Positions 5,401 to 37,449 of a stretch of DNA of 37,663 bases are shown here, one piece after another. The stretch comes from Clostridia bacterium (GTDB taxonomy: Bacteria; Bacillota; Clostridia; Peptostreptococcales; Acidaminobacteraceae). The stretch is taken from assembly GCA_016937975.1 (NCBI GenBank), contig JAFGVN010000072.1, positions 1 through 37,663 of the forward strand, written 5' to 3'. Below the pieces are notes generated by a model. That model searched no databases. It saw only the letters and a list, made by a program, of their open reading frames with translations, and was not told the DNA's origin. Numbering within the stretch: position 1 is the first letter of the stretch; each line of letters starts with the position of its first letter. The translations under genes and the position numbers were made by a program.

Positions 5401-7783
5401 GCTAGAATCGGAGTATGAAGATTATAATAATAACGCCTTTGTAAATGTAGAATTTTATTTGATACATATTGAATACTTTTTACATGTGAAGGATTATGAT
5501 CTGGCATCTCAGTGGTGTAAAAGACTTAGAAACTCTGATGTTATTCTTGAGGAAAAAGAGGAATTTATCTTAAGAGTTTTAGAATATGAAGTAGAAGTTT
5601 TTAGAAAGCAATATTTTAATTATACAGCCAATATTGATTTAAGGTTTGTAGAAGTTCTTGTGAAAACCCAAACCAATATGGTTGAAGCCAAAGCCGTAAG
5701 GTCTTTGATTTTAAGACTGGCAACCAATTTAATGAATTACAAGAAATATATTGATGTACATTTCTTGTTAAAGCTAGATGAAGATTTAACTCAAATTTTT
5801 GATACCCCATTTTTGGCGATGAAACATAAGGTTCTTAAAGGTGTTTTAAAAGATGACCGGATCACTTATTTTAATGAACTGTTGATACGTGAAGAACATC
5901 AGTTGACTCAGGAAGACAAATGGTTAATCTATAAGATTCTGGGCGATGAACATTATGATACCTATGATTATTACCATGGTATTCAGTGCTATTTTAATTC
6001 ATTCCATATTCTGAGAAATCTTGCAGAATTACTACCAAAAGAAAATAAGGAAAACTATATTTTCTGTGATGAAGTCAAGTTGGATTTAAAGAGCAAAGTG
6101 AATAACATACACCGTAAGCTCGTAGGTCAAAGTTATAAGGAAAAAACTGTATATACAGAGTTGGAAATAAGAAAAGCGGATGATTTCTTCGACTTGTCAG
6201 ATTATAAGAATTTTGTTCAGAACAAATCCATTCAAAATAGCATCAGTGAAATCTATGAAGAAAAACATGGTGTTGTTTTAAACTCCGTTAATGATTTGAT
6301 TCGAAATTTCGGTAAAAACGAAATTCGGAACATTCAATTGATTTTAAAATATTGTACTCAGATTTTAATGGGAGAAAGAGGCTTTATCTATATTTTAGAT
6401 GAGGACAATCGTATTAGTGAGATTGTTAAAACCAATGATGAACATGATTTGCCAGATTTGGACATGATTTTAAAATCGTCTGTGAATATCAATGAAGGTT
6501 TACTTGTAAATATGGTTTATGACAGTGTGAGGAATTTTCCTTTCATCGACAATCAAAAAGGTTTATTGTGCATTCCTATAACAAAGAATGAACATATTCT
6601 GGAAAAGCGAAGAGAAAATGACTTAGAAGAGCATAATATAGAAGTGAAAGGGTATATGTACATCGATGCATCCGAAGCCTTTAATAATTTTACCATAGAA
6701 CCTTTTACAGAATGTTTATCTCTCATGAACATGTTATATTTCTTTGTAGATAATTACAATTTAAAAAAGGTTTCAACAATAGATAAGCTAACCAATGTTT
6801 ATTTAAGATCATATTTTGAAGATTTGTTTTCAAGAACGTTGCATCGTTCTAAACTTAATGGCAATAGCTTAGCTGTTGTCATGTTGGATATAGATAAGTT
6901 TAAAGCCATTAATGACACCTATGGTCACAGAAAAGGTGATGAAATTCTTACGAATATGTGTCAGGTCATAAAGAACAATATTAGAGACACAGATTTAATT
7001 GGTCGTTATGGTGGTGAAGAGTTTGTTTTAGTATTTCCAAATACCAACAAGGAAACAGCTTATATGATTTGTGAAAAAATAAGAACAGCTGTGAAGAACA
7101 GTAACTTTTTAAAAGATGACCGAGATGTGACCATTAGTTTAGGGATTTCAACCTTCCCTGAATTAGGTCTAGTTGAAGAGGAGCTTATAGAAAAGGCTGA
7201 TCAAGCCTTATATGCATCTAAAAATTCAGGAAGAAATCGAACGACCGTATGGACACCTGATTTGGGTGAAAATCAGTTAAGATTTGATAAACTTGCAGGA
7301 ATCTTAGAAGGAAATATTTCTACAGATACAAGAAACGTTCAAGCTATAGTCGATATCATGAATACTGTAAAGTCAAAGACAAATTATGAAGAAAAGCTGG
7401 AACTCATTCTGAAAACCATTTCTGATGTTTGTGAAGCGCAAAAAATATCATTAATTAAATTAGAATCTGGTAAAATCATGAATGTTTCTACTAAATTTAC
7501 TGGAGAAGATATTATATCTAATCAAATGATTATTTCTGAGCAAATGGTAAAGACATTTGCAAAAAAAGAGAGTGCTGAGTATTTTATTAACTGGAATGAT
7601 ATCAGTGAATTAGATGACAAGAATGTTCCTGATTGGAAGTCCATGATCATTTCACCTTTGAAGTATAAAGATTTAAATAAGGGATTATTAGTCGTTAGTG
7701 TCCCAATTGCAACCAAAGAATTTAGTTTTAATACAACCAATTTTGTTAATGTTATTAGTGGTGTTATTGCCACTATATTATAG
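2435..7783 (+). CDS. Giant pseudokinase / AAA ATPase / TPR / GAF / GGDEF / GAF signalling protein
   Basis: A 1782-residue soluble multidomain protein. Residues ~7-270 resemble a Ser/Thr kinase fold, but the HRD motif is Y132-K-Y134, the kinase Lys is not evident and DFG reads D156-L-A, so it is probably catalytically dead. Next is a STAND/AAA-type ATPase with Walker A GDMGTGKT (308-315) and Walker B IVIVLD (418-423). A long helical TPR-like region (~640-1150) and a GAF-like domain (~1285-1440) follow. The GGDEF domain (~1447-1608) has an intact GGEEF (1526-1530) and inhibitory I-site R1517-D-T-D1520, so it should make c-di-GMP with product feedback. A second GAF-like domain (~1640-1782) ends the protein. 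A strong AGGAGG precedes the ATG. It is followed 8 bases later by the LacI gene. The layout resembles clostridial protein-kinase/ATPase/GGDEF fusions. Its input signal is unknown. Confidence 0.88.
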   Translation: MNLINHRYRILENITTDSFGDVFLVEDIFRETLCYLRLFSVDFTQNDLIKHYKSNFVRYSTMVHPNLYQDYKFDIVTTLDGKKSLRRQFFYTYERPAESTVHYMDLNRQEAIEVLIEICKALRYLHFRGYVYKYLSFENIHIYRNDENRLSIKLVDLASLQLFKDILKQEKTQNQFIAPEIFWKEMHNIQADIYSLGVVFYFLYHRSSYNHKIVDENLRKNIKNAVDKIVAQMIRISVIDEINSVDEFLSILKNMLNISIVYDDYDYFNKLQLKAPILERFNETTFFNEVVHEKFSRNSDYNAVLIVGDMGTGKTRVLDEAQTILKWEGYRVIRVDCEEDRIYNYDVFKSILVQIIEFGDISQELIIKYGSELIKLLPEYKHLWNVSPAESLSEPVEQLRIKNRLHNFLREYSSIHRIVIVLDGIHHLNDDQMDLLNYLMMDKKENQYFIIASYENDSVLSNRIANWEDMKKIYIKHLINFNYDQASHFVSSILGVGYNPIELTAKVMRDAHGNLKLIKDIIKSLFDKGYIYVNSHNEWVLNDQYDEFDNSNIMKVRSDFEKEIQYIPYGSMAILELIALFKEAAPLECIVNLIELKPSLTKQLLNELSNQNILKMKFDDQGETYDYCSRSLKRTLAEELEKGKKEKLHIRIAEFFENRIDQDKFQYMESLIHHFSNGNDKNKSVKYCNVLAVEMERQNMYMQAVELYNRALGILHTQERTGEIGRHYYEISRIYDLIGESELSKNIVYKGMDIAKEFGDKVVEMKCMILLAKHFVKRRDIARADQMLKDLRLNLEESDVISLNYETYHVEMQLLLAENNLFEARALLDTILDEMPKGYKSIFLNHLGTIELREGNLGEALKAFEASVNFLSQSTYHHLIESLYPQNNIGLLYSFYLDEIQKGRTYFSKAIEMTESKNLSQGTALFVRNLGETYLIEDRFDLAFIAFSKALEIVEKTMDSFVRADVCRMLCMLYIKTENYQKASFYLKKLESEYEDYNNNAFVNVEFYLIHIEYFLHVKDYDLASQWCKRLRNSDVILEEKEEFILRVLEYEVEVFRKQYFNYTANIDLRFVEVLVKTQTNMVEAKAVRSLILRLATNLMNYKKYIDVHFLLKLDEDLTQIFDTPFLAMKHKVLKGVLKDDRITYFNELLIREEHQLTQEDKWLIYKILGDEHYDTYDYYHGIQCYFNSFHILRNLAELLPKENKENYIFCDEVKLDLKSKVNNIHRKLVGQSYKEKTVYTELEIRKADDFFDLSDYKNFVQNKSIQNSISEIYEEKHGVVLNSVNDLIRNFGKNEIRNIQLILKYCTQILMGERGFIYILDEDNRISEIVKTNDEHDLPDLDMILKSSVNINEGLLVNMVYDSVRNFPFIDNQKGLLCIPITKNEHILEKRRENDLEEHNIEVKGYMYIDASEAFNNFTIEPFTECLSLMNMLYFFVDNYNLKKVSTIDKLTNVYLRSYFEDLFSRTLHRSKLNGNSLAVVMLDIDKFKAINDTYGHRKGDEILTNMCQVIKNNIRDTDLIGRYGGEEFVLVFPNTNKETAYMICEKIRTAVKNSNFLKDDRDVTISLGISTFPELGLVEEELIEKADQALYASKNSGRNRTTVWTPDLGENQLRFDKLAGILEGNISTDTRNVQAIVDIMNTVKSKTNYEEKLELILKTISDVCEAQKISLIKLESGKIMNVSTKFTGEDIISNQMIISEQMVKTFAKKESAEYFINWNDISELDDKNVPDWKSMIISPLKYKDLNKGLLVVSVPIATKEFSFNTTNFVNVISGVIATIL

Positions 7784-7791
7784 GAGGAAAC

Positions 7792-8799
7792 ATGAGTATA
7801 ACCATTAAAGACGTGGCCAAAAAAGCCAATGTATCAATATCTACAGTTTCTCGAGTGATCAATGACTCCAAACCTGTTAGTGATGATATTAAAATGAGAG
7901 TTGTGAAAGTAATCGAAGAGTTAGGTTATAAACCTAATCCAGTAGCTCGAAGTTTAGTGACTAAAAAGAGTCGTTTAATTGGTGTTATTATTCCAGATAT
8001 TTCAGATCCTTATATTGCTGAACTTTTAAATGCCATTGAAGAAGTAGCAAAAACTTACGATTATGATATTATCTTATGTAATTCATATGGCAGTTTGGAA
8101 TCTGAAGAACATTATTTGAATTTACTTCGTACCAAGCAAGTAGAGGGTATGATCTTCTTAACTTATAAATTGAGAACAGCACACAAGGATTTCTTTGAAT
8201 CTACAAAGATGCCAGTGGTTATGGTAAACAGAGATGCTTCAGAATTAAATCTCTCTTCTGTTTCGGTGAATCATTTTGATGCAGTTTATGAAATTACGAA
8301 CAAGTTGTTTGAAGATGGACATGAAAGAATTGCCTTAATCAGAAATGGTAAAACTAGCGACGTGTTTGGTCCAAGTCATTTAAAAGGTTTTGAAAAAGCA
8401 CATGAGACACATCATAAGTATTTTGATGAATCAATGGTCTTTAATGGCGCATTTAAACTTGAAAGAGCCTATGATATTGTGAAGCAGTTAATCGAAATGA
8501 AGGAATTGCCAACTGCTATTGTTGCAACCACAGATTCTATGGCAATTGGTGCCATCAACTGTTTAGTAGATCATGGCTACAAAGTGCCTGAGGATGTTTC
8601 TGTTTCAGGATTCTATGATACAAAGATTGCACAGTTGTATCGTCCACAATTAACAACAATCAAACAACCGATTTATGATATTGGTGCAATAGCCATTCGT
8701 TTGTTAATCAAGCAAATCAACGGTGATGAAAAGGATAAAAAACATTTCTATTTACCGCATGAATTGATATTACGTGACAGTACTCGCTCATTAAAGTAG
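7792..8799 (+). CDS. LacI family regulator, CcpA-like
   Basis: A 335-residue LacI/GalR regulator. The N-terminal helix-turn-helix is ITIKDVAKKANVSISTVSRV (residues 3-22), followed by the hinge helix (NPVARSL) and a periplasmic-binding-protein-like domain (from about GVIIPDISDPYIAEL). By eye it is closest to CcpA (DVAKKANVS, ELGYKPNPVARSL, DIILCNS, KQVEGMIF), the global carbon catabolite regulator that works with HPr-Ser-P. An ordinary sugar-responsive LacI protein is also possible. TAGGAGGAA lies just before the ATG, 8 bases after the giant gene's stop, so translation is likely coupled or co-transcribed. No sugar transport or catabolic gene sits nearby, which favours a global or unlinked target. 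Three cre-like palindromes occur in the window. Confidence 0.88.
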   Translation: MSITIKDVAKKANVSISTVSRVINDSKPVSDDIKMRVVKVIEELGYKPNPVARSLVTKKSRLIGVIIPDISDPYIAELLNAIEEVAKTYDYDIILCNSYGSLESEEHYLNLLRTKQVEGMIFLTYKLRTAHKDFFESTKMPVVMVNRDASELNLSSVSVNHFDAVYEITNKLFEDGHERIALIRNGKTSDVFGPSHLKGFEKAHETHHKYFDESMVFNGAFKLERAYDIVKQLIEMKELPTAIVATTDSMAIGAINCLVDHGYKVPEDVSVSGFYDTKIAQLYRPQLTTIKQPIYDIGAIAIRLLIKQINGDEKDKKHFYLPHELILRDSTRSLK

Positions 8800-28325: not shown

Positions 28326-28359
28326 TGGACTATCAAATAAGATACGAGAGGTGAATAAA

Positions 28360-28689
28360 TTGGAGAGAAGAAAATTTAAACGTTTCCCATTTACGGTTAC
28401 ACTAAAAATCGAAGAATTATATAAACAAGATAATTTAAAAATTGAAGTGAAAGATGAAATATTTGAGGTTGTAGACTTATCACGATCAGGTGTAGGATTT
28501 TTATGTGAACAGGATCTACCTCTTGAGTTCTACTTTAATGCAAAAATTACAATCAATGATGAAAAACACTTTTATTCGGTTGTAAAAATTATTAGAAAAA
28601 CTATGGATGTAGAAAAATTCCACTATGGATGTGAGTTTGTTGGACTTGCGGATATTTTATCGAATATCGTAGATGACTTAGATGACTAA
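28360..28689 (+). CDS. PilZ domain protein (c-di-GMP receptor)
   Basis: A 109-residue single-domain PilZ protein. The two c-di-GMP binding motifs are present: the arginine stretch at the N-terminus (MERRKFKRF, the RxxxR element at residues 3-8) and D-L-S-R-S-G (about 42-47, the D/NxSxxG element). It should therefore bind c-di-GMP and act as a small cytoplasmic effector, for motility or surface functions in most known cases. Start choice: GAGAGGTG is spaced 6 bases before a TTG at 28360, giving the canonical MERRKFKRF beginning. The GTG at 28351 overlaps the ribosome binding site and is less likely. A promoter is at 28296-28325. rlmN follows after about 40 bases without a terminator. Confidence 0.88.
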   Translation: MERRKFKRFPFTVTLKIEELYKQDNLKIEVKDEIFEVVDLSRSGVGFLCEQDLPLEFYFNAKITINDEKHFYSVVKIIRKTMDVEKFHYGCEFVGLADILSNIVDDLDD

Positions 28690-28730: not shown

Positions 28731-29765
28731 ATGTTAGAAAGTTTAAGAAATTATAGTTTAGAGGCATTGGAAACTTGGTTTCAAGAACACAATATTCCTA
28801 AATTTAGAGCCAAACAAGTTTTTGATTGGATTTCAAAGGGTGTTACAGCCTTTGATGAGATGAATAATGTACCTGCTGATTTAAAAAATCAGTTGAAAGA
28901 GCATTTTTTTATCAACAATATGATGATTTCTGATGTCATGACATCTAGTGATGGCACAAGAAAATACTTAATGACTTTAAATGATGGGAATATCATTGAA
29001 TGTGTTTTGATGCGATATAAACATGGCAATTCTATTTGTGTATCATCTCAAGTAGGTTGCAAAATGGGATGTTCATTTTGTGCATCCACCTTGTATGGTT
29101 TGGAAAGAAATTTAGATGCTGGAGAAATCATTGGCCAAGTCATGACAGTTTCTAGAGACATACAAGAAAGAATCAGTAATATTGTTTTAATGGGAAGTGG
29201 CGAGCCTTTAGATAATTATCATGAAGTATTAAAATTTATGAGATTGGTAAATCATCCAAAAGGCATGAATATTGGGATGAGAAATATTACTTTATCCACT
29301 TGTGGTCTTATTCCAAAAATTGAAGCTTTAATGGAAGAAAAACTACAAATTACTTTAGCGGTTTCTTTACATGCTGCAGAAGATGAAGTAAGAGATGCTT
29401 TAATGCCAGTGAATAAAAGTTACGCCATTAGACCTTTATTAGAAGTTTGCAAGCGTTATGCTGAAGTGACTGGTCGACGAGTTACCTTCGAATATGCCTT
29501 AATCGCAGGAAAAAATGATCAAAGAACTGAAGCAGAAAGATTAGCAATTCTTTTAAGAAACATTCATTGCCATGTAAACTTGATACCAATTAATCCTGTG
29601 GTTGAACGATCTTTTAAAGCATCGGATCAAGCACAAGCCAAGCAATTTCAAAATATCTTGAAGCAGCATGGCATTGAAGCAACAATTAGACGCGAGCTTG
29701 GATCAGACATTGATGCAGCATGTGGACAATTGAGAAACAAACATATAAATCGCGCATCTAAATAA
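28731..29765 (+). CDS. rlmN: Dual-specificity 23S rRNA/tRNA adenine-C2 methyltransferase
   Basis: A 344-residue radical SAM methyltransferase that methylates C2 of A2503 in 23S rRNA and A37 in some tRNAs. The cluster motif C110xxxC114xxC117 is in GCKMGCSFCAS. The two catalytic cysteines are C103 (SICVSS) and C331 (DIDAACGQL), spaced as in Escherichia coli RlmN. The GSGEPLDNY motif and the end of the barrel (HVNLIPINPV) match RlmN rather than the resistance enzyme Cfr. The ATG at 28731 follows AGAAAGGA; the in-frame upstream TTG at 28710 is not needed. It probably shares the transcript of the PilZ gene. Confidence 0.96.
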   Translation: MLESLRNYSLEALETWFQEHNIPKFRAKQVFDWISKGVTAFDEMNNVPADLKNQLKEHFFINNMMISDVMTSSDGTRKYLMTLNDGNIIECVLMRYKHGNSICVSSQVGCKMGCSFCASTLYGLERNLDAGEIIGQVMTVSRDIQERISNIVLMGSGEPLDNYHEVLKFMRLVNHPKGMNIGMRNITLSTCGLIPKIEALMEEKLQITLAVSLHAAEDEVRDALMPVNKSYAIRPLLEVCKRYAEVTGRRVTFEYALIAGKNDQRTEAERLAILLRNIHCHVNLIPINPVVERSFKASDQAQAKQFQNILKQHGIEATIRRELGSDIDAACGQLRNKHINRASK

Positions 29766-29854
29766 CCATTTACGATACAGTAAATGGCAAATAAAAATTC
29801 AGAATATTTTTAATTTTTAAAAGGGTTTCTGATTTGGATGTCGAATTATATATC

Positions 29855-29869
29855 AAGAAAACGTTTTCG
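29855..29869 (+). promoter_or_regulatory. cre-like palindrome before the small P-loop gene
   Basis: A perfect 12-base palindrome GAAAACGTTTTC (29857-29868) matches 13 of 15 cre positions. It lies about 40 bases upstream of the ATG at 29907, in the leader region between rlmN and the P-loop gene. Confidence 0.3.
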
Positions 29870-29906
29870 TTATATTCATCTACCAAGAATAAAGGAGGAG
29901 ACAACT

Positions 29907-30326
29907 ATGGTTAAAATTCTAGCAGGTAAAGAGGGTACTGGTAAAACAAAGCATTTAATTAGAATGGCGAACGAACAAGTCAAAGCTACTAATGGTAGTA
30001 TCGTCTATTTGGACAGTGACAATCGCCATATCTATGACTTAAAACATGAAATCAGATTTTTGAATATGGAGGAATTTCCTATTGATAAACCTGAGGAATT
30101 CGTAGGATTCTTATGTGGTATTATCTCTAATGATTATGATATAGAAACAATTTATGTAGATGGCCTTTATAATATGGTAGATATGAATGAGGTAGATGCT
30201 CTGGCGTGTGTACAAAAATTAGAAACAATTGCAGAGAAGTTCAACATTGAGTTAAAAATTGGTATGAAATATTTAGGTGATAAAGTACCTACTGAATTAG
30301 AAAAATACATTTTTCAACCAGAATAA
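29907..30326 (+). CDS. Small orphan P-loop ATPase-like protein
   Basis: A 139-residue protein with an N-terminal Walker A, G7-K-E-G-T-G-K-T14 (in VKILAGKEGTGKTKHLI), and a candidate Walker B at T81-I-Y-V-D85 (DIETIYVDGLYN). The segment SIVYLDSDNRHIYDLKHEIRF between them looks like the second strand and helix of a RecA-like core. It is much shorter than most P-loop ATPases and has no membrane segment. I do not recognise a named family. AAAGGAGGAG stands just before the ATG at 29907; an upstream in-frame ATG at 29838 would add 23 residues with no ribosome binding site and would run through the cre-like palindrome. It is downstream of rlmN, with its own terminator. It probably binds ATP or GTP; its function is unknown. 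Confidence 0.75.
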   Translation: MVKILAGKEGTGKTKHLIRMANEQVKATNGSIVYLDSDNRHIYDLKHEIRFLNMEEFPIDKPEEFVGFLCGIISNDYDIETIYVDGLYNMVDMNEVDALACVQKLETIAEKFNIELKIGMKYLGDKVPTELEKYIFQPE

Positions 30327-30334
30327 TTGAGATT

Positions 30335-30364
30335 AAAAGCCCAAATGGGCTTTTTTCTTTTTTT
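30335..30364 (+). terminator. Terminator after the P-loop gene
   Basis: AAAAGCCC (30335-30342), an AAAT loop and GGGCTTTT (30347-30354), then a long T-run. Confidence 0.92.
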
Positions 30365-30411
30365 TTGGGGTATAATAAATAAGGACGATTAACATATTTT
30401 AGGAGAAAACA

Positions 30412-32781
30412 ATGAATTCTAGTATAAAGAAAATTTTAGTATTAGATGATGAACCTATTATTACAGATACTTTAAGCAATTTATTGGATTTGATGATGGA
30501 TTGCGAAGTGAAAACCTATAATCATCCCTTACTTGCATTAGAGGATGAATGGCTGAACAATCAATCTCTAGATTTAGTGATTTCTGATTTCATGATGCCA
30601 GAAATTGATGGATTTGAGTTTCTAAAAGCCGTTGAATTGAAGCATCCTAAGTGCTTATCAATTTTATTGACAGGCTATGCCGACAAAAATAATGCCATTA
30701 AATGTATTAATGAAATCAATTTATATTATTATTTGGAAAAACCATGGCAAAATGATGATTTGATGAAAATCATAGAAAATGCCTTTGAAAAACAAACCCT
30801 TGAAAAACGTCTGGCAGACAAGGTGGTCGCATTGGAGAAATCCAATAATGAAGTTTCTAGACTCTATGAAATCCTACAAACAACCCATGATCATACTTTA
30901 AATGAAAATACAGTATTACAAGAAAGTATTTTAATAAGAAATTTTCATTTACAGGCAATTTTAGATTATGTGGATGAAGGTTTTTTCATGGTAGATGAAC
31001 ATCTGATTATTCAATCAGAGTATAGTCAAAAATGTTTAGAAATGTTTAAACAGGCTATTGAGAACAAGTACTTACCAGAATTACTGTATCCATATGATGT
31101 TGAGAATCAAAACTTTCTGAAAGACTTGATGTCAGATATTTTAGAAGGTGAAATTCCAAGAGAGTTACTTTTGCCACTTTTACCAGAACAGATTCATATC
31201 AATCAAAAGATTTATGCTTTGGGATTTTATTTTATTGATCATACCCCAGAAAAACTTTTGATGATCTCAGATAAGATGTTTATTGTCACCTTGTTTGATA
31301 TCAGTGAAAGTATGCATCTGAAGGAAGTAATGGAAGAAGAACATCAACAGTTTGATATGATTTTAGAAGTTTATAGAAGTGGCAATGCCATTAAGGCAGC
31401 CTTAAAGGATTATCATCATTTTTCTCAACAAATTCCTGAACTGTTGTCTCAAAATATCCCTGACGAGACGAAGATTCGAATAATTTTTAGACAAGTACAC
31501 ACTTTTAAAGGCATGTTTTCTCAGTTGAAAATGAAACAAACTGTTGATGCATTACATGCCTTGGAATCTAAAATTCTTGAAATTGAAAAATCAGGCATTA
31601 TAAAAAGCATTAGTCAATTATCCTTTAATCAAGCTATAGATAAAGACTTGGAAATACTTGAAAGAAAGCTAGGTTTGGATTTTGTTGATTTAAACGAAGC
31701 CGTTGTCATCGACAAAGAAAAGTTGATTCATTTGGAATCACAGTTAATGCCTTTCTGTCATGAGCCTCACATAAAAAGTCTATTGGAGGAGATACAAAGT
31801 TTTCGATTTAAGTCTTTTAAGAATTTATTGGAACCCTTTGACAACTACATTCAAGATTTATCTGAAAAGCTGAATAAACCCATGGATCCCTTTGTCATTG
31901 AAGGAGAAGACTTTGAAATAGATCAGGAAATCTACAGAGATTTTACCAACAGTTTGGTTCATGTCGTAAGAAATATGATGGATCATGGTATTGAAGCACA
32001 GGAAGAAAGAAGTCTCAAAGAGAAACCTTTAAGTGGTAAAATTCAAGGAAGCGTTCGAATCATAGATGAACATATTCAACTGATTCTAAAAAATGATGGT
32101 TGTCCCATAGATCCAGAGGTTATTAAGGAAAAAGCCCATAAGAAAGGCTTGAAAACAGAGCCTTGTTCCAAGGAAGAGGTCTTACAGCTTATTTTTGAAG
32201 CCGATATATCCACTAGTGATGAAATTACAAGTCTTTCTGGCAGAGGTATTGGATTAGCTGCAGTTAAACATGAACTGTTAAGATTGGGTGGCCGTGTAAA
32301 AATTTCATCTGATCCTAATGAAACTCAATATGAATTTATGATACCCTTATATAAAGGGCTATTAAGTCATGAGGCTATTGAAAATGTTTTTATAAGAGGT
32401 GTTTCCTTATATTTGGAACGGTATGGAAGTACTTTAGAAGTGAATAAAACTTGCAATACCTTTGATGCACTTTGGATGGGTGTTGAGATTCCATTTGATG
32501 GGCTTTACTCAGGTGTGATTCACAGTTTTGTCCAAGAAGCTTCACTTACTTATTTAGCTGAAAAACACGGATTCCATAAGGATGATTTAAAAACTATGAA
32601 GAATGAAGTGTTTAAGGAAATCATGAACACCTTAATTGGCAATGGGCTTGGCATGTTGCCAGGGAATACCAATATGGTTGAAATTGGTATTCCGAAGGTT
32701 TTGGAGGGTATCCCAGAAACGAGTTGTAATTGGTACACCATTAGCAATGAAAAAGTGACTTTAATCATACGTTTATTATAA
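30412..32781 (+). CDS. Hybrid signalling protein: REC / HPt / CheA-type ATPase / CheX-like domain
   Basis: A 789-residue soluble protein. The N-terminal receiver (~7-125) has phospho-acceptor D59 in VISDFMMPEIDG and K in EKPW. A coiled-coil linker (~130-170) and a PAS-like stretch (~175-320) follow. An HPt-like helical region has H363 in QVHTFKGMF. The CheA-type HATPase domain (~500-650) has N521 in VVRNMMDHGIE, the G1-like NDGCPID and G2 G610-R-G-I-G-L. The C-terminus (~655-789) resembles CheX/CheC phosphatases: E736-I-M-N739 in FKEIMNTLIGN matches their ExxN active site. The CheW-like P5 domain of CheA is missing, so it should not join receptor arrays directly. Its mates are a CheY/STAS-like protein 10 bases on and a P1 peptidase. 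TATAAT at 30371-30376 is a likely -10 box, with no good -35. The domain boundaries are my reading. Confidence 0.82.
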   Translation: MNSSIKKILVLDDEPIITDTLSNLLDLMMDCEVKTYNHPLLALEDEWLNNQSLDLVISDFMMPEIDGFEFLKAVELKHPKCLSILLTGYADKNNAIKCINEINLYYYLEKPWQNDDLMKIIENAFEKQTLEKRLADKVVALEKSNNEVSRLYEILQTTHDHTLNENTVLQESILIRNFHLQAILDYVDEGFFMVDEHLIIQSEYSQKCLEMFKQAIENKYLPELLYPYDVENQNFLKDLMSDILEGEIPRELLLPLLPEQIHINQKIYALGFYFIDHTPEKLLMISDKMFIVTLFDISESMHLKEVMEEEHQQFDMILEVYRSGNAIKAALKDYHHFSQQIPELLSQNIPDETKIRIIFRQVHTFKGMFSQLKMKQTVDALHALESKILEIEKSGIIKSISQLSFNQAIDKDLEILERKLGLDFVDLNEAVVIDKEKLIHLESQLMPFCHEPHIKSLLEEIQSFRFKSFKNLLEPFDNYIQDLSEKLNKPMDPFVIEGEDFEIDQEIYRDFTNSLVHVVRNMMDHGIEAQEERSLKEKPLSGKIQGSVRIIDEHIQLILKNDGCPIDPEVIKEKAHKKGLKTEPCSKEEVLQLIFEADISTSDEITSLSGRGIGLAAVKHELLRLGGRVKISSDPNETQYEFMIPLYKGLLSHEAIENVFIRGVSLYLERYGSTLEVNKTCNTFDALWMGVEIPFDGLYSGVIHSFVQEASLTYLAEKHGFHKDDLKTMKNEVFKEIMNTLIGNGLGMLPGNTNMVEIGIPKVLEGIPETSCNWYTISNEKVTLIIRLL

Positions 32782-32791
32782 AGGAGTTATT

Positions 32792-33520
32792 GTGGCAAAT
32801 ATATTAATAGTAGATGACTCATTGATTATGAGAAGAAATCTATCCATGATTTTAAAGGAAGCTGGTCATACTATTGTTGGAGAAGCCGGCAATGGACAAC
32901 AGGCCATTTTATTGTACAGAAGATATAAGCCAGATCTTGTTACCATGGATATTACAATGCCCAATATAGATGGCATTGACGCTTTAAAACATATTATGAC
33001 AGAAGATCCTTCTGCAAAAGTCATTATGATTAGTGCATTAGATCAAAAGGCTAAGGTTTATACTGCTTTAAGAAGTGGTGCAAAACATTATATTTTAAAA
33101 CCTCTAACAGCTGAAAAGATAAACTCTGTCATTGATGAGGTATTAAGTAAGGAGCCTGCACCAGTAGACGTCATTCAAAAAGAAGATAAAATAGAACAGG
33201 CTTTTTTCATTAAAAATGAACCGGATTTGTTTAAAATCATCATTAACAGAGACTTGGCTTATGAAGATGTTTTGGTATTAATGCATGCTATACAAGGTTT
33301 TTTATATCTGGAATCTTTTGCAATTCTATTTGATTTTCAAAAATTCATGATTTTAGATGAAGAAGGTCTTTCTAAGTTTGATGGTATTATCAACAAAATT
33401 AGAAGTGCGTCAGGTGATTTTATGATAAGAGGAAAAAACCCAGAGTTTATCAAGAAGATGACACAAAAAGATGAAGCTTTAGTTCAAAGCTTTGAATTAG
33501 GGGAATTTGTACTGGAGTAA
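32792..33520 (+). CDS. Response regulator with CheY-like receiver and STAS-like C-terminus
   Basis: A 242-residue protein starting with GTG behind AAAGGAG. Residues 1-120 are a CheY-like receiver: acidic D8-D9, phospho-acceptor D53 in VTMDITMPNIDG, the S/T switch in MISAL and K in LKPLT. Residues ~140-235 (LFKIIINRDLAYEDVLVLMH, then FAILFDFQKFMILDEEGLSKFD) have the alternating strand/helix pattern of a STAS (anti-sigma antagonist) fold, but I cannot see the usual conserved Ser/Thr with confidence. It lies 10 bases after the hybrid kinase-like protein, its probable phosphate donor through the HPt His and its possible dephosphorylating partner through the CheX-like domain. The output is unknown; protein-protein signalling is more likely than DNA binding. 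Confidence 0.85.
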   Translation: MANILIVDDSLIMRRNLSMILKEAGHTIVGEAGNGQQAILLYRRYKPDLVTMDITMPNIDGIDALKHIMTEDPSAKVIMISALDQKAKVYTALRSGAKHYILKPLTAEKINSVIDEVLSKEPAPVDVIQKEDKIEQAFFIKNEPDLFKIIINRDLAYEDVLVLMHAIQGFLYLESFAILFDFQKFMILDEEGLSKFDGIINKIRSASGDFMIRGKNPEFIKKMTQKDEALVQSFELGEFVLE

Positions 33521-33523
33521 AAG

Positions 33524-34513
33524 ATGAAATCAGGAAAATTAAATGCTATTACAGACGTACCTGGGGTTTTAGTAGGGCATCAAACCTTAGTAGATGGAGA
33601 TATTCAAACTGGTGTAACCGCCATATTGCCTAAGTCCTTTGACTGGTTTCATATGAAAAACAAGGCTGCAGTACATGTCATCAATGGTTTTGGAAAATCC
33701 ATTGGGTTAACACAAATAGAAGAGCTCCATACCTTGGAAACACCAATTCTTCTAACGAATACCTTAAGCGCTCCACATGTTGCAGATTGTTTGATCAAGT
33801 TTATGATGAGTCATAATCCTGATATTGGTAGAAAAAGTGGTTCAGTGAATCCAGTAGTTCTTGAATGTAATGACAGTTATTTAAATAATATTAGAAAACA
33901 AGTTATTACAGAGCACGATGTATTCAGAGTGTTAAACAATGCGACAGAAAACTTTGAAAGAGGTGCTGTAGGCGCGGGTAGAGGCATGAGTTGCTACCAG
34001 TTAAAAGGTGGCATTGGTACAGCTTCAAGAGTTGTAGAAATAGAAGGAAAAAATTATATGATAGGTTCCTTAGTCATGACCAACATGGGTCTATTAAAGG
34101 ATCTTAGGGTGAATGGCACCAATATTGGACCTGAAATTCAAAGACAATTAAACCTGGAACAAGAAGAGGAAAAGGGATCGATTATTATTGTACTGGCGAC
34201 AGATTTACCCCTTGAATCCCATCAATTAAAGCGCATGGTTAAACGTGCTGGAGCAGGACTTGCAAGAACAGGAACTTTTATAGGACATGGATCAGGCGAT
34301 ATTGCTTTAGGATTTACCACAGAGACTGTAAGTCATTTTGCAAGTGCAGCGACTCGCATTATAGAAGTTCTACATGATCAATACATGGATCTTGTCTTTG
34401 ATGGTACTGTCGAGGTAGTTGAAGCAGCCATTATTGACAGTTTAATGTCTGCAGTAGAAGTGACTGGTTATAATGGTAATACAAGAAAGTCCTTAAAGAA
34501 TTACATGAAATAA
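33524..34513 (+). CDS. P1 (DmpA/S58) family peptidase
   Basis: A 329-residue N-terminal-nucleophile hydrolase of the DmpA family (L-aminopeptidase D-Ala-esterase/amidase, or beta-aminopeptidase). The self-cleavage site is G218-S219 in EEEKGSIIIVLATDLPLES, where Ser becomes the new N-terminal nucleophile of the small subunit. The start DVPGVLVGHQTL, the motif GAVGAGRGMSCYQLKGGIGTASR and the late GHGSGDIALGFTT are typical. It acts on small peptides or amides, probably in the cytoplasm, since no signal peptide is seen. Its ATG is 3 bases after the previous stop, with GGAG inside the end of the upstream gene, so translation is coupled to a signalling pair with no obvious metabolic link. A terminator follows at once. 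Confidence 0.93.
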   Translation: MKSGKLNAITDVPGVLVGHQTLVDGDIQTGVTAILPKSFDWFHMKNKAAVHVINGFGKSIGLTQIEELHTLETPILLTNTLSAPHVADCLIKFMMSHNPDIGRKSGSVNPVVLECNDSYLNNIRKQVITEHDVFRVLNNATENFERGAVGAGRGMSCYQLKGGIGTASRVVEIEGKNYMIGSLVMTNMGLLKDLRVNGTNIGPEIQRQLNLEQEEEKGSIIIVLATDLPLESHQLKRMVKRAGAGLARTGTFIGHGSGDIALGFTTETVSHFASAATRIIEVLHDQYMDLVFDGTVEVVEAAIIDSLMSAVEVTGYNGNTRKSLKNYMK

Positions 34514-34536
34514 AGCTCGGATATCCGAGCTTTTAA
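34512..34536 (+). terminator. Terminator after the P1 peptidase
   Basis: AAAGCTCGG (34512-34520), an ATAT loop and CCGAGCTTT (34525-34533) with a short T-run. It overlaps the stop codon. Confidence 0.75.
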
Positions 34537-34554
34537 TGTGTTCAAAAGTTCAAT

Positions 34555-34794
34555 CTATAGGAATTTCTTGCCTAAGTATTTTTTGATTAATTCAGGATCA
34601 CTGAAATCATCAATTAAAATTTCTTGACCTGTTTCTTCGAAGATTACAAGGACTTCAACGTCTCCTTGCTTGAAGCTTTTAATCACAGTATCTTCTCTAA
34701 CTTCTCTCACTTTATTTGCATAATTTTTTATTTTCTCAAACTCATTTGTATAAATTGCACCTGAAATACCAATGGTTTTTACATATCGTTTCAT
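34555..34794 (-). CDS. Small conserved-looking protein of unknown function
   Basis: A 79-residue protein without signal peptide or membrane segment and with no motif I recognise. It alternates short hydrophobic strands (VKTIGISGAIY, VEVLVIFEE, EILIDDF) with a charged helix (NEFEKIKNYANKVREVRED), suggesting a small alpha/beta domain. AAAGGAG is placed 5-6 bases before the ATG on the minus strand, and the codon use looks like its neighbours, so it is a credible gene. It is divergent from the Usp-like gene, sharing the 34795-34901 gap. No terminator of its own is evident beyond the hairpin at 34512-34536, which might serve both directions. Confidence 0.68.
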   Translation of the reverse strand: MKRYVKTIGISGAIYTNEFEKIKNYANKVREVREDTVIKSFKQGDVEVLVIFEETGQEILIDDFSDPELIKKYLGKKFL

Positions 34795-34860
34795 AAAAAC
34801 TCCTTTATTAAATTTCGATAAACCTTTTTCTTGCTTTTATTTTATATGCTTAAATTGTAG

Positions 34861-34866
34861 TATAAT
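34861..34866 (+). promoter_or_regulatory. Probable -10 box for the Usp-like gene
   Basis: A perfect TATAAT lies 36 bases before the ATG at 34902. No good -35 box stands 17 bases upstream (AT-rich TATTTT), so an activator or an alternative spacing may be involved. Confidence 0.4.
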
Positions 34867-34901
34867 ATACTCACATAAGCAAGTTGTGTTTGGGAGGTTT
34901 T

Positions 34902-35303
34902 ATGGAACAGCGAAAAATAATGGTGTGCGTTACACAACAAAAATTGTGTAAACGTTTAATCCATCGTGCACATGCTTTAAAAAAACATGAAGAAGATGAA
35001 TTGTATGTTATTCATGTTGTTAAAGAAAACTGGAAGTATTTTGGGAAACTAAAAGAAGCAGACGCTTTAGAATATTTGTTTGATAGTGCAAAATCATATG
35101 GAGCGACACTCAATGTCTTTAAAGCAAAAGACATTGAAGGTAAACTTGCTGAATTTGCTGAAAAAGAGGGTGTAGATGTTATTGTAATGGGTGAATCTAA
35201 AGAAACAAGCAAACAACAAAATATGATTAACCGTTTACAAGAAAAGACGCATAAAACAGTAGATTTTGAAATTGTACCTCAAACCTATAAAATTAACAAG
35301 TAA
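34902..35303 (+). CDS. Universal stress protein-like (UspA/KdpD-Usp type) protein
   Basis: A 133-residue Usp-fold protein. The first strand and helix read RKIMVCVTQQKLCKRLIHRA, which recalls the Usp domain of KdpD (VCVTGQ.SC..LIRRG) more than classical UspA. It continues with ELYVIHVVKENW, a helix ending in AKSYGATLNVFKA and the strand GVDVIVMGESKET. The usual ATP-binding G2xG9xGS/T loop is only partly present (MGESKETSKQQ), so nucleotide binding is uncertain. I chose the ATG at 34902 because GGGAGG precedes it; the upstream in-frame TTG/ATG codons are not supported. It is monocistronic, with its own terminator. A role in osmotic, potassium or general stress signalling is guessed from the family only. 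Confidence 0.8.
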   Translation: MEQRKIMVCVTQQKLCKRLIHRAHALKKHEEDELYVIHVVKENWKYFGKLKEADALEYLFDSAKSYGATLNVFKAKDIEGKLAEFAEKEGVDVIVMGESKETSKQQNMINRLQEKTHKTVDFEIVPQTYKINK

Positions 35304-35712: not shown

Positions 35713-37449
35713 ATGAAAATTAAACGCATTGGTGTTAAGCTATCCATTATTATTGTTATTGGAATTATCCTAACAGCTATCCTGTTAAGTATTCTTGCCA
35801 TAACAAACACCAACAGTATTGTTGAGAAGTTAGTAGGTCAGAAGGCCATGGCTATTGCCCAATCCGTCGCTTCACATATTGATGGTGATGAATTCCAGAA
35901 GCTGATATTGTCAGAAGATGATACATCTGAATATTACATAGCGACACAAACTTGGATGTACCAGTTGTTTTTGGATACTGAATCTGCATACTTATATAGC
36001 ATGTATGATGGTGGAGGAGAACATTATGTTTACGTCATAGAAGGCTCTGGGGAATACGGTACTGAGGGTTTTTCAGAATTAGGTTCTTTAGATGCCAAAG
36101 AAAACTATGGACAGGAACCTCTTGATGTACTAAGAGATGGAAAAGCTCGTTACAGTGAAATCTATGACGCGGGTGAATGGGGGTTGTTAGTATCTGGTTT
36201 TGCCCCTGTATATAATTCGAATGATGATATTATCGGTATAGTAGGATGTGACGTATCAGCAAACACAGTCAATGACATTACTGGAGATTTCTTAAGAAAA
36301 CTTACCCTTGGTGTTGTGATCATTATTGCTGTATTTATGGTTATCTTCATTTATTCTGTAAGAAAAATCATACTTATCCCTATTGGAAGTGTTGTAAATT
36401 ATGCAAGCAGGATCGCTAATAGAGATTATGCTTTTGATTTAGATAAAGGTTTATTAGAGAAAACAGATGAAACAGGTACCCTAGTGAATGCTATAAATGA
36501 CATTAAAAATCAGACTTCGTTGGTTTTAAACAATATAGTTGACTCCTCAGATACCCTTGTATCGTCATCAAACAGTTTATCCTTAGTTTCAATTGAAACA
36601 GCTAAATCCATAGATGAGGTTTCTAGAGCTGTTAATGACATAGCAAGTAATGCTACCAACCAAGCTTTGAGTTCAGAAGAAGGTTATAAAAAAGTCGTTG
36701 AACTACAAACTATCATTACAGAAAACAGCAACAGAATCAATGAGCTTGTTCAAGCATCAGATGAGATGAACACCTATGTGTCTGAAGGTAAAAACACAAT
36801 TGACACTGTAGTTTTGAAATCTGAAGAATCCAATAGATCGATTAAAGAAATTCAGGAAAAACTTGAAGTGACAAGCAAATCATCTGAAAAAATTAGTGAA
36901 GCCAGTGGTGTTATTGCATCTATTGCCGAACAAACAAATTTGTTAGCTCTAAATGCTGCCATTGAAGCAGCGAGAGCCGGGGAACACGGTAAAGGTTTTG
37001 CTGTTGTTGCAGAAGAAATAAAGAAACTGGCAGAACAATCTGCACTTTCAACTCATGAAATTGACGAAATTGTAAAAGTATTATTAAGCAACTTAGAAGA
37101 GACGGTTCAGGTGATGACTTCTGTTATTAAGAACACCGATCAGCAACGTAAGAGTGTGGATGAATCCATGGAAAAATACAATAACATTGAACAGGGTATA
37201 ACTAAGATGCAGAAAAGTATCGAATATTTAACCCAGTCAAATAATGATATTGTGACCAATTCTTCACACTTGCAAGATGTCATTTCTAGCATTACCAATA
37301 TCGCTGAGGACAATGCTGCTAATACCGAAGAAGTATCTGCTGCAACGGAACAACAAAATGCGTCCATTCAGGAAGTATCAGAATCCAGTAAACGTTTGGC
37401 AGAACTGGCAACAGAACTAAAAGATATTGTAAAAACTTTTAAACTGTAG
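35713..37449 (+). CDS. Methyl-accepting chemotaxis protein (Cache-type sensor)
   Basis: A 578-residue transmembrane chemoreceptor. TM1 is at ~10-30. An extracellular Cache-like sensor follows (~31-190; [38 protein letters not shown] is typical of single or double Cache folds). TM2 is at ~195-216, then a HAMP-like segment and a long coiled-coil signalling domain. The conserved hairpin tip [32 protein letters not shown] lies at ~403-435 and binds CheA/CheW. Gln/Glu-rich methylation regions flank it. There is no C-terminal CheR-docking pentapeptide. The ligand is unknown; Cache receptors often bind amino acids or organic acids. GGAGG precedes the ATG. It is monocistronic as far as the window shows, and no terminator is evident in the following 200 bases. 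Confidence 0.95.

Follow-up and report, generated by a model that had tools for sequence, protein, structure and literature searches.

In a survey of CheA architectures, the chemotaxis kinase CheA is defined by the domains P1, P3, P4 and P5 (PMC10782961). The same survey describes CheC/CheX fusions in F1 CheAs of Leptospirae, for which its authors suggest a dual kinase/phosphatase function. In Rhodobacter sphaeroides, CheA3 has CheY-P phosphatase activity (PMC2817712) and, more generally, many histidine kinases dephosphorylate their regulators, CheX using an ExxN motif (PMC3510030). Here we describe a pair of adjacent genes, P0001 and P0002, located in a 37,663-nucleotide stretch of DNA from a Clostridia bacterium of the family Acidaminobacteraceae (GCA_016937975.1, contig JAFGVN010000072.1; hereafter the window). 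P0001 encodes a CheA-like protein that has no CheW-like domain and ends in a CheX domain, and P0002 encodes a receiver followed by a STAS tail (Table 1). We consider it probable that P0001, CheA-like though without CheW, works as both kinase and phosphatase on its neighbour P0002.

Like class II CheA, P0001 combines an HPt domain, a P3-like region and a P4 ATPase and has a CheY-like receiver partner, but it is devoid of P5/CheW, has sensors or, as here, a receiver fused at its N-terminus and carries CheX at its C-terminus. Since the survey's definition of CheA includes P5, this CheW-less, sensor-fused family falls outside it, whereas the Leptospirae fusions, which also unite a kinase and a CheC-family phosphatase in one protein, are CheAs with P5 by that definition (PMC10782961). 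A first-pass annotation of the window had assumed that kinase and CheX activities normally reside in separate proteins, a view outdated by these fusions and by bifunctional kinases (PMC10782961; PMC3510030). R. sphaeroides CheA3 is likewise an HPt protein that also has phosphatase activity, in its case towards CheY-P; its phosphatase region, called novel, is located between P1 and P5, and it cannot autophosphorylate (PMC2817712). The CheX/CheC phosphatases of known structure (1xko, 1squ and 3hzh) share their fold and ExxN motif with the P0001 tail but are stand-alone proteins, whereas the CheX of P0001 is a C-terminal kinase domain. The STAS proteins SpoIIAA, RsbV and RsbS have their fold in common with the P0002 tail.

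P0001 was compared with relatives from 41 genomes of the same family, 393 genomes of the order (searched with the kinase core), 391 of the class (CheX tail) and 299 of the phylum (Pfam CheX), and from further searches of 391 class and 398 phylum genomes with the region upstream of the ATPase; loci in these genomes are given below as L numbers and genomes as G numbers. The resulting set contains at least 24 full-length CheX-tailed kinases, and members may be missed, few candidates having been scored per genome. Twenty-one are in the main alignment, including P0001 and three degenerate tails, and three were added later (L178, L179 and L180); L111, broken off at a contig end, was not counted. The region upstream of the ATPase matched at least 11 of 391 class genomes and at least 13 of 398 phylum genomes (E 1e-30; the window's genome is in each count), suggesting that the family is sparse.

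The residues singled out in the first-pass annotation (D59, H363, N521, GRGIGL 610-615, E736 and N739 in P0001, D53 in the partner) are all found at the positions claimed, D59 being placed from the translation. The Pfam Hpt match of P0001 (22.9 bits) is below the cut-off of 24.6 and that of its relatives L120, L121 and L159 is above it; the phospho-acceptor His is invariant in all 21 aligned CheX-tailed kinases. N521 is kept in 20 of these 21 proteins, in which the CheA-type ATPase boxes are conserved, and, judged by sequence, the boxes expected of an ATP pocket appear to be present in P0001 itself. In the PDB, its core (residues 472-645) has its nearest matches among P3-P4 structures of CheA, with E values down to 3.8e-26. 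P0001 thus has the HPt and P3-P4 regions of CheA and, as the first-pass annotation had noted, is without the CheW-like P5; no Pfam match to the CheW family was obtained in P0001 at E up to 1, nor in the other CheX-tailed kinases, all 24 having been scanned. The C-terminal position, where CheA has P5, is occupied by a CheX fold. The conserved region ahead of the HPt domain looks PAS-like by eye; Pfam gives no match, and assigning residues 181-300 to PAS was rejected for want of Pfam support.

The CheX tail of P0001 scores 17.6 bits with Pfam CheX (PF13690), under the gathering cut-off of 27. Of the 24 CheX-tailed kinases, 19 exceed this cut-off, and Pfam CheX is not listed for L120 (the P0001 orthologue), L126, L124 or L125. 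Structure models were made for two tails, residues 644-789 of P0001 and the P0002 tail. The first was built from an alignment of 18 fused kinase tails with no free CheX and has a mean predicted local distance difference test (pLDDT) value of 85.6 and a predicted template modelling (pTM) score of 0.79. Foldseek ranks CheX proteins from Thermotoga and Borrelia first (E between 3.3e-7 and 5.0e-7), and eight CheX-type chains align with it over 134-141 residues (Z 12.4-13.9, root-mean-square deviation (rmsd) 3.1-4.3); CheC, FliM and FliY rank after these CheX-type entries, with Z below 10. A sequence profile of the fused tails retrieves eight CheX/CheC-like structure sequences, the best being Borrelia CheX (3hzh, E 2.5e-14), whose ExxN lines up with that of the tails. 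The tail therefore has both the fold and the catalytic ExxN of CheX phosphatases, and the first-pass proposal of a CheX-type C-terminus holds, profile and predicted fold being in agreement. The pair E736/N739 is kept in 21 of the 24 kinases (18 of the 21 aligned plus the three added relatives). In a tree with 32 stand-alone CheX domains, the fused tails all lie to one side of a 99/99 branch, a topology consistent with one fusion, to be read with care given the long branches.

P0002 has a receiver (residues 4-114, Pfam Response_reg 97.7 bits, D53 at 32948-32950). Its tail scores only 14.2 bits with Pfam STAS (PF01740, cut-off 22.6); the L116 partner reaches 18.9 bits, none of the six partners scanned attains the cut-off, those of L118, L178, L179 and L160 having no STAS listing. 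However, the model of the tail, built from eight sequences (pLDDT 81.0, pTM 0.73), has a STAS fold, superposing on TM1442 (Z 12.5, rmsd 2.6, 102 aligned residues), SpoIIAA (Z 12.5, rmsd 2.2, 99 residues) and RsbS (Z 12.1, rmsd 2.2, 100 residues), and a profile of partner tails finds SpoIIAA at E 2e-4, in agreement with the STAS-like tail seen at first pass. The assignments of both the P0001 and P0002 tails, weak alone, are thus made firm by the concordance of the relatives' profiles and predicted folds. Unlike SpoIIAA, P0002 has no phosphorylatable Ser at the DSSGL site, which reads DEEGL in the alignments. This replacement of DSS by DEE makes a Ser phospho-switch unlikely, and the STAS domain is presumably controlled through the fused receiver.

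Eighteen of the 24 CheX-tailed kinases have a receiver gene next to them in the same orientation, and the gene pair is therefore conserved in relatives, as expected if the first-pass annotation was right. The kinase gene precedes the receiver gene in 14 of the 15 pairs measured and in L178, L179 and L180 (17/18), with gaps of -14 to 292 bases in the 15 measured pairs. According to the partner-tail profile, 10 of the 18 paired receivers have a STAS tail. Judging from protein lengths, none of the 13 partners of CheX-less kinases has one; with a previous tally of 0/11, Fisher's test gave 0.0035, a value that ignores relatedness and on which we do not rely.

Inputs are variable in this family. An N-terminal receiver is present in only four of the 24 kinases (P0001, L120, L108 and L116; Pfam, all 24 scanned), where it is one of several types of input, so that the term 'self-contained phosphorelay' used in the first-pass annotation was too strong. 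The other inputs include dCache-HAMP (L118 and L119), 7TMR-DISM (L112, L117 and L122), a Ser/Thr kinase-AAA-GAF front fused to the HPt-bearing core, HATPase and CheX in a protein of 2157 amino acids (L114, 2247-8720), and an Fe-hydrogenase-like 4Fe-4S front in L178 (3990-7367), L179 (7375-10752) and L180 (8156-11536), possibly a redox or hydrogen sensor. The remaining CheX-tailed kinases have no input domain above the Pfam cut-off. One genus-mate (G030) has an orthologue of P0001 with the same receiver, L120, which shares 42% identity with it across residues 5-762; the two proteins pair at 100/100 in a kinase-core tree whose deep branches are not resolved. A search with P0001 of the contigs of named genomes gave ten distant receiver or kinase matches of no use. 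The P0001 receiver is 47-53% identical to receivers in reading frames of 360-386 amino acids from relatives, and the three of those proteins that were read (L025, L026 and L034) carry HD-GYP motifs, suggesting that the domain was recruited.

Some related kinases are devoid of the CheX tail. We considered 13 of them with an adjacent receiver (L187, L188, L189, L161, L183, L184, L185, L186, L181, L182, L191, L192 and L193; the kinase frame of L186 is broken), leaving out those for which no neighbouring receiver was found (L190, L162, L163, L194, L195, L196 and, within 1.5 kb flanks, L048-L052) and L127 (partial receiver match). In the first eight of the 13, a separate CheX gene precedes the receiver gene, encoding a protein of about 300 amino acids with CheX at its C-terminus (e.g. 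L183 7877-8773, L187 4044-4928). Pfam CheX matches all eight proteins, above the cut-off in L183 (45.4 bits), L186 (30.8) and L187 (30.2) and with 16.9-25.9 bits in the others; seven also have sub-threshold DUF4388 matches. The E and N of ExxN are invariant across the eight. As far as the sequences tell, CheX is thus part of a kinase/CheX/receiver cassette, being joined to the kinase in one branch and encoded on its own in another, and its recurrence beside the receiver in either form favours that neighbour as the substrate.

The ExxN pair is lost in three tails, those of L126, the paralogue of P0001 in the window's own genome, and of its counterparts L124 and L125 in two genus-mates (G029 and G030). 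The residues at the positions of E736/N739 in L126, L124 and L125 are L/E, M/E and K/D in the MAFFT alignment, and R/D, K/Q and K/D in a by-eye register anchored on the preceding acidic stretch; the pair is lost under either register, and L124 has a chance ExxN string about 10 residues upstream. In the receivers beside these three kinases, the phospho-Asp is replaced by Ser and the conserved Lys is gone, whereas both are kept in all 15 receivers beside tails with intact E and N. The HPt His and the ATPase boxes are retained in the three kinases, except for S609A in two.

Sequences and predicted folds establish the domains and their catalytic residues, the gene pairing, the two arrangements of CheX and the joint loss in one lineage. 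From these we propose a scheme whose catalytic steps are deduced from the families named above; which way the phosphate flows, what CheX acts on and what STAS binds are deductions as well. Signals entering by way of the N-terminal receiver and of the conserved stretch preceding the HPt domain would set the activity of the HATPase, which would phosphorylate H363. The phosphoryl group would then move from H363 to D53 of P0002, where the altered receiver would change binding by the STAS domain, the putative output. The CheX tail, through E736/N739, would hydrolyse the D53 phosphate, such that one polypeptide may both make and erase the output.

The same domains could be used in other ways. D59 sits in an intact-looking receiver and cis action would be easy within a single polypeptide, so the CheX tail might act mainly on the kinase's own receiver, setting its input, while the partner phosphate decays by itself. 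We regard this as unlikely: the tail is present in the 20 of 24 kinases that have no N-terminal receiver, making the partner more likely to be the general substrate, in the eight CheX-less sets CheX has its own gene next to that of the receiver, and decay of the tail accompanied loss of the neighbour's Asp. A multistep phosphorelay, in which D59 is phosphorylated by another kinase, P0002 receives the phosphate from the HPt domain and the ATPase plays a secondary part, would fit the co-occurrence of receiver and HPt domains, as in hybrid kinases, and the resemblance of the P0001 receiver to those of stand-alone REC-HD-GYP regulators. It seems to us quite unlikely, given that the CheA-type P3-HATPase boxes are conserved and that in the same 20 kinases no receiver precedes the HPt-ATPase core, which makes the receiver look like an input module. 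It is very unlikely that the tail serves for docking or dimerisation, or has flagellar CheY as its target, rather than being the neighbour's phosphatase, since ExxN is so widely kept, is otherwise lost along with the neighbour's Asp, and CheX recurs as a separate gene adjoining a receiver; such a role would be in line with the related folds of FliM and FliY, which serve in the flagellar switch (titles of the structure matches), with further CheX matches in the window's genome and with the chemotaxis genes near L178 and L109 (see below). That P0001 is an ordinary CheA of a chemoreceptor array with an overlooked CheW domain, as the CheA-like P3-P4 and the che genes adjoining L178 might hint, is extremely improbable: none of the 24 kinases has a CheW match, the CheX fold fills the C-terminal position and several relatives have their own membrane sensors.

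Several observations nevertheless weigh against the proposed kinase-phosphatase role of P0001. Both CheX and HPt of P0001 are below Pfam cut-offs, no Pfam CheX match is listed for L120 at E 0.05, and the CheX domains of these two proteins are on very long branches, so that their activity could be weakened. Six of the 24 kinases, all from family f31, have no adjacent receiver gene. In five of the 13 CheX-less pairs (L181, L182, L191, L192 and L193) no CheX gene was seen alongside with a profile search of the stretches fetched, a profile that misses most of the eight CheX genes found by Pfam; Pfam, run on two neighbours of these five, gave citrate synthase beside L191 and a weak APH match beside L192. 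The joint loss of ExxN and Asp, being confined to one lineage, counts as one event and could reflect plain decay of receiver signalling in that pair, and the receivers beside CheX-less kinases keep Asp and Lys too (10/10 checked). The L159 receiver has no STAS tail and ends 11 bases before an HD-GYP gene. Finally, the L178 kinase directly follows cheR, cheD and cheB genes and may serve chemotaxis, and a CheW gene 2.3 kb from the L109 kinase speaks against a purely separate role; some contact with chemotaxis is possible.

We also raise, tentatively, the possibility that the modular sensor-HPt-ATPase kinase/CheX/receiver cassette operates outside chemoreceptor arrays mainly to set cyclic di-GMP, with the STAS tail as an adaptor recruiting cyclic di-GMP enzymes. 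This suggestion stems from the L180 partner (7104-8117), which ends in GGDEF in place of the STAS domain found in the partners of the like kinases L178 and L179, and from a downstream third gene with HD-GYP motifs (HDVGK, HHE and GYP) in four genomes of two genera (L121, L159, L160 and L123). The N-terminal part of the two HD-GYP proteins scanned has no Pfam assignment.

The open reading frames bear out the spacing given at first pass, 10 bases between kinase and partner and 3 bases between partner and peptidase. The latter is a solid family member (Peptidase_S58 367.5 bits, cut-off 23.9; D-aminopeptidase 2drh, E 5.3e-85), and S58 peptidases are present in 24 of the 41 family genomes, the window's own included. 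However, its proposed coupling to the pair does not extend to relatives: in all six other family genomes having both it and a full-length kinase of this family (G029, with the degenerate paralogue only, G030, G015, G016, G017 and G033; draft assemblies), the peptidase is on a different contig from the kinase, and in G040, where the kinase is present, no peptidase was matched at E 1e-20. The peptidase was therefore rejected as a functional partner; it is near enough for co-transcription here, yet is an incidental neighbour rather than a conserved component. A Usp gene comes after it in the window (33524-35303) and also in G030 (L165 1145-2891), where this copy is without the kinase pair. Upstream, a terminator-like hairpin separates the kinase gene from the preceding gene; four such hairpins were found in 29700-35000, against 2.3 expected in shuffles. 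A small protein at 29838-30326 has a P-loop-like start (GKEGTGKT) with weak ATPase matches. A PilZ protein (28351-28689) and a protein with the signalling domain of methyl-accepting chemotaxis proteins (35713-37449) flank the locus at some distance.

Table 1. Features of the P0001-P0002 locus in the window and of related loci.
Feature	Position	Strand	Details
Kinase gene P0001, 789 amino acids	30412..32781	+	REC - unassigned region - HPt - P3/HATPase - CheX
P0001 receiver, residues 8-121, D59 at 30586-30588	30433..30774	+	Pfam Response_reg 68.6 bits
P0001 conserved region before HPt, LLDNxGQGF ... DITEK	30952..31311	+	Alignments; no Pfam match
P0001 HPt, residues 338-388, phospho-acceptor H363 (HTFKG) at 31498-31500	31423..31575	+	
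P0001 CheA-type HATPase, residues 514-646, N521 and GRGIGL 610-615	31951..32349	+	Pfam HATPase_c 45.7 bits
P0001 CheX, residues 644-789, E736 at 32617-32619, N739 at 32626-32628	32341..32781	+	
Partner gene P0002, 242 amino acids, GTG start	32792..33520	+	Receiver plus STAS tail
P0002 STAS, about residues 134-238	33191..33505	+	Profile and predicted fold
S58/P1 (DmpA-type) peptidase gene, 329 amino acids	33524..34513	+	Peptidase_S58 match
Terminator-like hairpin, between upstream gene and kinase gene	30335..30354	+	Consensus match only
Paralogous pair L126	8437-11610 (G000:C47)		Degenerate CheX tail and receiver without phospho-Asp
HD-GYP genes	L121 6239-7753, L159 7508-9034, L160 6806-8317, L123 10616-12115		Pfam HD_5 in the two scanned

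No description of a CheW-less kinase-CheX architecture was found in the literature searched, in which subscription journals are thinly covered. As far as this search goes, the idea of a kinase-CheX fusion is already known, and the new elements are the CheW-less, sensor-fused form, the STAS-type partner and the links to cyclic di-GMP. If our interpretation is correct, a CheY-type regulator outside chemotaxis would be under tunable push-pull control by a single protein. Natural experiments are available within the family, in which sensors are swapped (receiver, dCache, 7TMR-DISM, Fe-hydrogenase-like, Ser/Thr kinase-AAA-GAF), outputs are swapped (STAS, GGDEF or a receiver alone), CheX is fused or has its own gene, and, in one lineage, the phosphatase pair and the target Asp have decayed jointly. 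The reason for tethering a phosphatase to a CheA-type kinase would thereby become directly testable with soluble proteins.

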